Assembly: GCF_000011485.1 (NCBI RefSeq)
Contig: NC_005071.1
Coordinates: forward strand, 747,347 to 811,346
Length of the DNA stretch: 64,000 nucleotides
From: Prochlorococcus marinus str. MIT 9313
GTDB taxonomy: Bacteria > Cyanobacteriota > Cyanobacteriia > PCC-6307 > Cyanobiaceae
Direction of reading: 5' to 3'
Shown here: one piece after another, positions 30,457 through 51,573 of the stretch
Layout: every line of letters starts with the position of its first letter
How positions within the stretch are numbered: position 1 is the stretch's first letter
Position numbers and translations under genes: made by a program
The notes under the pieces: model-generated
The model's database searches: none
The model's input: only the letters and a program-made list of their open reading frames with translations
What the model was told of the DNA's origin: nothing

Positions 30457-31093
30457 GTGATAAAAACTCTTCCCGCTGACCTCCTCGAAGCCGAGAACAT
30501 GGTTTTGGAGGCTCTACAAACCTCTTTAAAGGATCAACCCCTGGGGCGATGGGAGGTGAACTTGAAGTTTGAGGGCTTGAAATTGATGCCCGTGGCTCTA
30601 CGCCTGATGCAGAATCTGCAAGAAGATGGGTTTGAGATTGTTCTTGTTTGGCCTGATATGGGTGGTGCAGCACTGGCTAAACACAATGCTCCTGAACTTG
30701 CTAATCAGATCTCTTCAATCAATGATTTGCTCGGTGACCTGAATGGAAAAGATGATGATCGTATCTTTTTGGTTGTTGCACCACAACCCAGCGATTACGA
30801 TCAGTTTGAACTCCTCTGCAACAAACATTCAGGGGCTGTTGTCATGCTGAACGGCCGTTTGGAAGATAGTGCTGTAGGAATTGGAGGCGTTGCTAGACAA
30901 CGTAGACGAGGATTTTTATGCTTTATGGCGTAAGGCCTATTGGCTTGAACCATTGGAGTCTGGTGCGTTGATGCGTTCGCACCCAGGCGAATGGATCTTG
31001 TTTCGTGCTGATGTTGATGGGTATCGAGAGACGACGACCTTCGACCAGCGTCCAGATGCTGAAGCCATCGACGCTGCTCTTATTGGCACTTAG
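30457..31093 (+). pseudogene. DUF1995 family protein, split by a single-base frameshift
   Basis: A protein of a cyanobacteria/plant family (DUF1995; the plant LPA3 protein belongs here) in two frames. Frame one runs from GTG 30457 (MIKTLPADLLEAENMVLEAL) through EGLKLMPVALRLMQ, APQPSDYDQFELL and VVMLNGRLEDSAVGIGGVARQRRRGF; its stop is at 30931-30933. The C-terminal continuation (ALWRKAYWLEPLESGALM...DAEAIDAALIGT) is in the next frame and stops at 31093. Removing one T from TTTTT at 30913-30917 joins them into about 211 residues with the usual family order. It could be a real mutation, a sequencing or assembly error, or programmed frameshifting; the first two are more likely. Confidence 0.85.
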
Positions 31094-48844: not shown

Positions 48845-49804
48845 GTGAAAAATCAAGGTCATAATCTTCTCAATTTTTCAAAAGTAATACTATCTTGTGG
48901 TCTCATCGTGGCTGTCATTAATATCCTTCTAATCTCAATTCATAGTTTCCATCAAAGAACAGCAAGAAATCAACTTATGAACCTATTTCTGGAGGGTATG
49001 CAAGCCATAAAAGAAGACAAATCACTCTCAAAAAATTCGAAGAACGTTTCTTCGCAAACACCAACCTATTCTGCACTTCTCTCTTCTAAGGATGATGATT
49101 CCTTGTCTTTAGAGTTAAAAGTTGGTCTGATTAGCCAAAATCCACCAATACAAATAAAAATAAAGGATTTAGGGTTTTGTAAACTTCCCTCTGGGAGGCT
49201 TATTAACGAGCATACTCTAAATAATATGTTGAAGATAAAGAATACTCAGATTGCTGATATCAAATGTTTTGCCACAACCAGTAGCGGCATCCTAGTCAAC
49301 AATCAGCCTTATAGATCTAAAGTTTATTTAGTTAACCGGAGCAATGGCTGGATTGCGGTTAACCAACTCTCGCTTGAGGATTATGTCGCTTCTGTTGTTG
49401 GTGCTGAAATGCCCAGTCTTTGGAATATGGAGGCTCTTAAAGCTCAGGCGGTTGCTGCACGTTCTTATGCGCTTGCCCATATCGCAAGACCTGTGAACAA
49501 GGATTTCCATCTCGGTGACACCACCCGTTGGCAGGCATACCGAGGGATAGCAAGCCAAACATCACGCTCTACGCAAGCAACTCAAGCCACCAAGGGAATT
49601 GTTCTTCGCTACAAGGGAGGAATTGTTGAAAGCCTTTATGCGTCAACGGCAGACATCAGTTTGCAAGCTCATGGCCACCTAGGAGCGAGCATGAGCCAGC
49701 ATGGGGCCCAGAAATTGGCACGGAGTGGTTTGAAGTTCAATGAAATTCTTGCTAGGTATTACACAGGTGCTTCCCTAGCCAAACTACAAAGCCGTGGCAA
49801 TTGA
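48845..49804 (+). CDS. SpoIID/LytB-domain protein, membrane anchored
   Basis: A 319-residue protein starting at GTG 48845. An N-terminal hydrophobic segment (about 14-30, VILSCGLIVAVINILLI) anchors it; a low-complexity Ser/Lys stretch follows. The SpoIID domain spans about 175-315: VNQLSLEDYVASVVGAEMPS, then WNMEALKAQAVAARSYAL (conserved E and R of the lytic transglycosylase SpoIID), and the C-terminal AHGHLGASMSQHGAQKLARSG, where HxGxSQxGA is typical. The catalytic Glu of the EMP motif is present. It overlaps the next gene by 11 bp. A peptidoglycan-cutting role is expected; sporulation is not involved. Confidence 0.9.
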   Translation: MKNQGHNLLNFSKVILSCGLIVAVINILLISIHSFHQRTARNQLMNLFLEGMQAIKEDKSLSKNSKNVSSQTPTYSALLSSKDDDSLSLELKVGLISQNPPIQIKIKDLGFCKLPSGRLINEHTLNNMLKIKNTQIADIKCFATTSSGILVNNQPYRSKVYLVNRSNGWIAVNQLSLEDYVASVVGAEMPSLWNMEALKAQAVAARSYALAHIARPVNKDFHLGDTTRWQAYRGIASQTSRSTQATQATKGIVLRYKGGIVESLYASTADISLQAHGHLGASMSQHGAQKLARSGLKFNEILARYYTGASLAKLQSRGN

Positions 49805-50639
49805 GCATTACTGGGATCAGGCGCTTGAACGCAGCACTGCAGCACAACTCAATGGTGCACTGGTACCTCTCAGCACCGAGCTCACAAGAATTCGAGCACG
49901 ACAAGGAGAACCCTTTGAACTGCGCAAGCTAAAAGGCCACCCGCCATCTCATCTCCTAGCCAGAGGTCCAAAACCTAACCCGTTTTTACCTTGGGATCCA
50001 AGCTTGGAGGTTAGTGAAATTGGCATGAGACATGTGCTAATTCTCAACAAATATCCGGTTCAAAAGGGACACATGTTGTTGATCACACGTGAATGGGCCC
50101 CTCAGCATGGTTGGCTTAGTTATGATGACTGGGAGGCACTGCTAAGTGTTGATCAGGACACCAAGGGGCTTTGGTTTTTTAATAGTTCTCCAACGGCTGG
50201 AGCTAGTCAACCTCACAGACACTTGCAATTGCTAAGACGATGCGACGACGATCGCAGTTGTCCTCGACAGGAATGGTTTCAATCATTGGTAAACTCCTCA
50301 CCCAGGGAAAGCTGTCAACTTACTCAATGCTGTGCTGCAACAGCTAGAGCACAGAATCATGATGCTCAAATTCATTATCAAGCTTATCTAACCCTTTGCG
50401 AAAAGATTGGACTTGGTAATCCGGCAGAGAATCAACATCCAAGACAACCATACAATTTGCTGCTCACGAAGGAATGGATGGCACTGATACTTCGAAGCCG
50501 AGAGGGAATTGCAGGCTTCAGCATTAATGCACTTGGATTTGCCGGTTACCTTCTAGCCACAGAAACATCTGATCTGGACTGGCTTAATCATCATGGGCCT
50601 GAGGCCTTGCTAGAAGGCGTGGTCAAGACGATTCAGTGA
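49794..50639 (+). CDS. Ap4A phosphorylase / ATP adenylyltransferase (APA1/2-type)
   Basis: A 281-residue HIT-superfamily enzyme that splits diadenosine tetraphosphate. GMRHVLILNKYPVQKGHMLLITRE near 78-100 and the HxHxQ-type nucleotide site QPHRHLQLL (H141, H143, Q145) with SSPTAGASQP are characteristic of ATP adenylyltransferases. The C-terminal YNLLLTKEWMALI is conserved. The start is GTG 49794 inside the end of the SpoIID gene. It may adjust Ap4A levels in stress. Confidence 0.93.
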   Translation: MAIEHYWDQALERSTAAQLNGALVPLSTELTRIRARQGEPFELRKLKGHPPSHLLARGPKPNPFLPWDPSLEVSEIGMRHVLILNKYPVQKGHMLLITREWAPQHGWLSYDDWEALLSVDQDTKGLWFFNSSPTAGASQPHRHLQLLRRCDDDRSCPRQEWFQSLVNSSPRESCQLTQCCAATARAQNHDAQIHYQAYLTLCEKIGLGNPAENQHPRQPYNLLLTKEWMALILRSREGIAGFSINALGFAGYLLATETSDLDWLNHHGPEALLEGVVKTIQ

Positions 50640-50724: not shown

Positions 50725-51440
50725 ATGATGAATGCCAAACTCAAACGTCGAAATAAGCAGATCGAAGAACATCTGCAACTCGTTAGGCCAATAGCACTCC
50801 ACTACGCTTTTCGTACTGGACAGGACAAAGAGGACCTCACTCAGGTCGGAATGCTAGGCCTTATCCGAGCAGCACATTCTTTCAAACCAGTAAATCAGTA
50901 CCATTTTCCGCCTTTGCAAAACCGCATATACGTGGTGCCATCCTTCACTACCTCAGGGATAGTGTAGGACCAGTTAAATTACCTAGACGAGTTGAGGAGC
51001 GAGCTCAGGCACTTCTCAGAGATTCAACCTTGATCGACAGAGCCAGTTTTTTTGAAAAGCTCAGTGCAGTCGATAGAACACTCATAGAGAGCTACAAGCA
51101 GAAAGGACGCTGGTACCCTCTCGATCATCAATTCCTAACAGCTGATAAAGATCAGTGGAGTGAACTGGTCAACAGGGAACGTAAACGAATGCTTATGAAT
51201 GCTCTAGAGAAGCTCGATTGCCAAGAGTCTGCGGTGGTTGATCACGTAGTACTAAGAGGAGAAAGCCTTCGCAGTACAGCCAGTTACCTGGGGATCAGCT
51301 GCATGACCGTACAAAGACGTGTGAAGCGAGCGCTTCGGCGACTGGCTGTTGATTGCTCTGAGTTGTCTCCTGACGCTGATTCCCCTCTCAGGAAGCAGGA
51401 TGTTGATCCCTCTGGATCTGTTGCTCCAAGGTCTCTATAG
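50725..51440 (+). pseudogene. Alternative sigma-70-family factor, split by a -1 frameshift
   Basis: A group 3-like sigma factor of about 239 residues when joined. Frame one (50725-50967) gives region 2: EEHLQLVRPIALHYAFRTGQ, DLTQVGMLGLIRAAHSFKPVN. Its continuation lies in the -1 frame from about 50895: SVPFSAFAKPHIRGAILHYLRDSV followed by GPVKLPRRVEERAQALL, and it reaches region 4 near residues 185-230 (LEKLDCQESAVVDHVVLRGE, then SLRSTASYLGISCMTVQRRV). One base added near AAA at 50892-50894 would restore the reading frame. As given, frame one ends in out-of-frame residues and stops at 50965-50967. It may be a broken gene or a sequencing error; a programmed shift is possible but unsupported. 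Confidence 0.85.
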
Positions 51441-51573
51441 CTGCTTTCACTGCAGACAGGCGACGCTCTAGACCATCACGCAGGAAAAGAAGCATTTCAA
51501 GCTTCCTGTTCTGATAGTGACGACGACGGTCTGCCGAGTCAACATTTGAGCTGAGGCAAAAGGGAGAGAACAT
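51388..51573 (-). CDS. Small hypothetical protein with a helical, coiled-coil-like core
   Basis: A 61-residue frame starting ATG 51573. After a short variable head comes RRRHYQNRKLEMLLFLRDGL, then ERRLSAVKAAIETLEQQIQR, with the even charge pattern of a single amphipathic or coiled-coil helix. Similar small helical proteins are frequent in marine picocyanobacteria. Its 3' end overlaps that of the sigma factor (convergent, 53 bp). Function unknown, and coding status is moderately certain. Confidence 0.55.
   Translation of the reverse strand: MFSPFCLSSNVDSADRRRHYQNRKLEMLLFLRDGLERRLSAVKAAIETLEQQIQRDQHPAS

Follow-up and report, generated by a model that had tools for sequence, protein, structure and literature searches.

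A SigF-like group 3 sigma factor gene split by a frameshift in Prochlorococcus marinus MIT9313, with apparent repeated loss in marine picocyanobacteria

The divided sigma factor gene of MIT9313

The window analysed here is a stretch of 64,000 nucleotides (positions 747,347–811,346) from the genome of Prochlorococcus marinus MIT9313, which is a single contig of 2,410,873 bases. On its forward strand, a gene resembling those for Ap4A phosphorylases and ATP adenylyltransferases (49794–50639; Pfam PF19327, 113 bits; PF09830, 66.4 bits) is followed by two overlapping open frames that carry the parts of one sigma-70 protein; in relatives, too, this neighbour precedes the sigma gene. The first of these, frame A (50725–50967, 80 aa), contains regions 2.1–2.2 (Sigma70_r2, 36.4 bits, profile positions 2–43 of 71) followed by about 30 out-of-frame residues. 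The rest of region 2 (2.3–2.4), a linker and the region 4 helix-turn-helix (Sigma70_r4_2, 31.3 bits) lie in the −1 frame of the same strand (50877–51440), which ends with a stop codon at 51438–51440 and for which the first listed start is a TTG at 51030. These boundaries come from the list of open reading frames, from Pfam and from alignment to the orthologue in the sister genome, Prochlorococcus sp. MIT 0701, and they bear out the original prediction that regions 2 and 4 are in different frames.

In MIT 0701 the orthologue is one intact frame of 222 aa at the same locus. In a DNA alignment the window is one base shorter than MIT 0701 within 50874–50880 on the forward strand, and this is the sole one-base gap in the gene. 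A frame-aware protein alignment puts the gap at the same place, at residue 50 of 222, with frame A aligning with residues 1–49. The join had been predicted to follow FKPVN, near 50892, but the actual gap lies about 16 bases further 5′: the MIT 0701 orthologue reads RAAQYFQSSKSVPF where the −1 frame of the window already reads FFQTSKSVPF, so that FKPVN is itself out of frame. An extra base had been offered as the alternative, and this has the wrong sign; because the window lacks a base that the intact gene has, an extra-base error could not explain the split. The two halves are 81.7% and 82.9% identical to this single protein, which excludes the possibility that they are chance matches. The split in the given sequence is confirmed, and, as in a pseudogene, the reading frame is interrupted where the orthologue occupying this locus in MIT 0701 is intact.

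A further difference is located at the 3′ end, where the TAG stop of MIT 0701 corresponds to AAG in the window (51393–51395, forward strand), as seen in the same alignment. The −1 frame extends by 15 codons as a result, across a small antisense open reading frame (51388–51573, reverse strand, 61 aa) that overlaps the 3′ end of the sigma frame. The antisense frame is conserved (dN/dS 0.113 against MIT 0701) and has no Pfam match.

Pfam matches to sigma regions 2 and 4_2 are over cut-off in the two window pieces and in the MIT 0701 orthologue, and region 1.1 is lacking, the composition of a group 3 sigma factor. Among NCBIfam families the intact orthologue scores highest against SigF (PRK07408), although its 125.8 bits, like the 117.8 bits of an orthologue from a second genus (g34, see below), are well under the curated cut-off of 261 bits. 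On these profile scores the gene encodes a SigF-like group 3 sigma factor, but not SigF as delimited by NCBIfam. SigF of Synechocystis 6803 is described as a cyanobacterial group 3 sigma factor required for pilA1 transcription and for pili (PMC2758279, PMC7690835). The MIT 0701 orthologue resembles it in its best-matching family, and the state of the orthologue in another genus (g5) goes with the state of type IV pilus genes. It differs in reaching only half the SigF cut-off, in that the intact orthologues listed are about 197–222 aa with no Pfam region 3 match listed, and in that no exact SigF core promoter (TAGGC/GGTAA) was seen at the MIT9313 pilin cluster.

Besides this gene, the MIT9313 genome encodes seven sigma factors whose region 2 and region 4 matches exceed the cut-off, and a further SigF-like gene of 296 aa is located at 859 kb. 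A group 3 sigma factor has been noted in Prochlorococcus MIT9313 and MIT9303, the only Prochlorococcus strains of those then sequenced that are described as having group 3 sigma genes (PMC2784084). This is probably either the split gene or the second SigF-like gene, and the relevant passages of that paper make no mention of a frameshift; nor is it reported in the literature listings consulted. A phage origin was considered and rejected. A tblastn search of 50,697 phage records with the MIT 0701 protein gave 65 matching records, all below 60% identity (15 of the 65 listed), and counts of organism names among the matching records show no Prochlorococcus or Synechococcus phage.

The orthologous gene in related genomes

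Genera are labelled g1, g3, g5 and g34 in this analysis, and g5 and g34 appear to be marine Synechococcus-like. The sigma gene evolves fast, and its usual place is just downstream of the Ap4A-phosphorylase-like gene; this neighbour was found in 33 of the 34 g5 genomes, and where the two genes share a contig it directly precedes the sigma gene. All 34 g5 genomes were searched. Of these, 19 have an intact sigma gene (18 by an automatic rule and G131 by frame-aware alignment), ten have a copy broken by mostly different lesions (G161, G215, G173, G224, G278, G284, G248, G113, G233 and G206, of which G278 and G284 are incomplete genomes), and one has an eroded copy. The state of the gene could not be assigned in four, where the locus runs into contig ends (G301, G296 and G255) or where there was no orthologous match and the locus was not retrieved (G308). 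The expectation that all relatives would have one intact frame fails against these ten broken copies, two of which (G161 and G113) are split at a place similar to that in the window.

In the genome with the eroded copy, G266, only a chance-level match is left between the two neighbours. There is no recognisable open reading frame in the eroded stretch, and the small antisense gene beyond it is retained. Within g34 the gene is intact in 28 of 31 genomes; G315 has a stop, G314 has a truncated copy and G317 (63% complete) has none. The G314 gene is cut after GAILH and an excisionase-like reading frame follows, possibly through an insertion or a chimeric contig. In the window's own genus the gene is absent from G002, G003 and G004, where the neighbouring gene is missing too, so that loss is indistinguishable from incompleteness.

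The broken copies fall at several points of a tree of 38 read-through proteins, and the lesions differ between sister genomes (G215 and G248; G206 and G233). These observations point to about nine or ten independent inactivations, with the possibility that the lesion in G161 and G113 is one shared event. As judged from the sampled genomes, the gene appears to have been lost repeatedly in marine picocyanobacteria, and it is not conserved everywhere. A frameshift hot spot in the loop before the VPF motif was also considered and rejected: 5 of 15 frameshifts fall within 10 codons (P = 0.033), and P rises to 0.20 when G161 and G113 are treated as a single case.

An alternative explanation is that a sigma factor with region 2 split over two frames is kept under selection in MIT9313 and in G161 and G113, and is made full-length or in two parts through recoding or restart; we consider this most improbable in general, and each of its two forms can be set against specific observations. 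Programmed or tolerated −1 frameshifting could still yield a full-length protein, and the two halves do look selected. The −1 shifts of G161 and G113 are in the same codon, with dN/dS of 0.126 between these copies compared to 0.114–0.142 in similarly diverged intact pairs, and the RNA downstream of the shift folds slightly better than shuffled sequences (z −1.71; 13 of 200 shuffles as good). However, there is no in-frame slippery heptamer of the form X XXY YYZ at the shift site, and the sequence of the site is not conserved between the window, G161 and G113. A TAA is present at the G113 site and a second stop at position 193 in G161; MIT 0701 needs no shift, and the intact g34 copies (28 of 31 genomes) use one frame. 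Coincidences within one codon are expected by chance among 15 frameshifts; the clustering probabilities are those noted above. We think it very doubtful that recoding sustains the gene.

In the second form, the −1 frame would be translated alone as a region 4 protein. SigO–RsoA of B. subtilis is a two-part sigma factor whose regions 2 and 4 are encoded by different reading frames, as they are in the window. A 136-aa open reading frame starting from the TTG at 51030 does hold region 4, and both G161 and G113 have a GTG at the equivalent of the VPF motif. The split is nonetheless inside the conserved region 2 domain, with no start codon ahead of region 2.3; no start is listed before 51030 in the window, and regions 2.3–2.4 would thus be lost. 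It is hard to credit two separate proteins on this evidence.

Association with type IV pilus genes

The state of the pilus locus was scored from PilC (PF00482) and PilB/PilT (PF00437). With G302, G304, G305 and G309 left out as incomplete, together with the four unassigned genomes and G278 (which has both a decayed and an intact pilus locus), an intact pilus locus is present in 13 of the 15 assessable g5 genomes with an intact sigma gene, compared to two of ten with a broken or eroded one (Fisher P = 0.0024); for genomes at least 90% complete the counts are 7 of 9 and 2 of 9 respectively (P = 0.057), and both P values ignore shared ancestry. There are exceptions in each direction: G241 and G131 have an intact sigma gene and no intact pilus locus, and G161 and G224 show the reverse. 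In g34, all 24 near-complete genomes combine an intact sigma gene with a PilC match. In many g5 genomes, chiefly ones whose sigma gene is broken, pilB/pilT/pilC are absent or carry frameshifts, and in several the pilus locus is near 20 kb of its contig.

In MIT9313, pilB, pilT and pilC are open despite the split sigma gene, and PilA1 is reported from the exoproteome of this strain in one medium (PMC7994388). It follows that the sigma factor is not strictly needed for PilA1, or that it was intact in that culture, or that the link is indirect. In the 60 kb surrounding the pilin cluster the SigF core promoter has a single exact match, as searched in one genome and with a motif that may not be the one used by this sigma factor, and none of the six sites with at most one mismatch lies at the pilin cluster itself (303.4 kb). 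The association with pilus-gene decay in g5 suggests that the regulon of this sigma factor is linked to type IV pili.

Age of the lesion and its standing in the living strain

Between the window and MIT 0701, dN/dS is 0.284 for the sigma gene (0.139 before the shift and 0.303 after it) and 0.217 for the upstream neighbour. Amino-acid changes that could be polarised number six on the window side and five on the MIT 0701 side (11 in total, 18 of the 29 differences not being polarisable), and the window residues fit the family columns no worse than those of MIT 0701 (P = 0.50). By none of these three measures do we see relaxed selection on the window copy. Several broken g5 copies have clearly drifted by the polarised count, from which G224 was left out (22:8 for G173, 22:4 for G206, 42:9 for G284 and 35:14 for G278). 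As the window copy has no such drift, unlike these older broken copies, its lesion is either very recent or not real. The predicted recent loss is consistent with a single-base split and an intact nearest genome, but no relaxation of selection is apparent, the pilus operon is intact, and a sequencing error is a less probable alternative. Like ordinary recent bacterial pseudogenes, the locus has a single lesion, an intact sister copy and repeated independent losses in relatives; it departs from them in that the window copy has not yet drifted, and in this respect is not separable from an error.

The main rival is that the reference contains a sequencing or assembly error and that living MIT9313 has an intact sigma factor. 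A comparison was made between 414 kb from MIT 0701 and 424 kb from the MIT9313 genome. Open reading frames could be aligned for 328 of 338 in MIT 0701 and 335 of 358 in MIT9313, and 17 were flagged in each direction; most of these we judged to be over-extended starts or doubtful frames, with the lesion near an end or the frame short. Four besides the sigma gene were looked at closely (a dapF extension, a DUF1995 gene, an upstream part of clpP and a 122-aa frame), and the others were judged on position and length only. Two clear genes are frameshifted, those for the sigma factor and DUF1995, both on the MIT9313 side, and MIT 0701 showed no lesion of this kind in the comparison.

The DUF1995 gene (PF09353; 30457–31093, forward strand), used as a control, has one base more than MIT 0701 near 30919, as shown by alignment and Pfam, and its frameshift is 20 kb from that of the sigma gene. 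A sample of 61 genomes has this core gene in 50 overall and in 33 of its 34 near-complete members, and among the genomes listed only MIT9313 has it split over two open frames. This split is either an error or a surprising loss, and it hints at errors in the MIT9313 assembly.

The further single-base frameshift that a core gene of the same window carries, the absence of relaxed selection in either half, and an intact pilus operon with PilA1 protein reported in the strain all favour an error and speak against inactivation. However, two lesions in 414 kb represent a low error density, and for one of them to hit this 0.67-kb gene by error is improbable, whereas loss of the gene is frequent, with about a third of the assessable g5 genomes carrying a broken copy. 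The stop codon found in MIT 0701 is lost in the window as well, and the six-to-five division of polarised changes is expected for a fresh lesion. Weighing these points is a matter of judgement; we regard a reference error as rather unlikely, and a recent, real inactivation of the sigma factor in MIT9313 as the probable explanation.

Under a real inactivation, the loss of one base inside region 2 would end the protein after region 2.2, removing the part that recognises the −10 element together with region 4 and leaving no working sigma factor. Such an event would be recent, as the evolution of both halves is still that of an intact gene, and would count as one of some ten independent inactivations among the relatives sampled. 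The ease of loss probably reflects a regulon that is dispensable in some ocean niches. The living strain would then lack a functional product, and the loss of a regulatory branch that was originally proposed for MIT9313 would follow.

These observations correct one gene in an ocean model strain that is in wide use, and they matter for its annotation even if the lesion should be a sequencing error. They indicate that a little-studied group 3 sigma factor has been lost again and again in marine picocyanobacteria, and its decay alongside the type IV pilus operon provides a testable guess at its regulon. As pili are described as influencing the sinking and grazing of these cells (PMC7994388), a sigma factor linked to pili would be of ecological interest.
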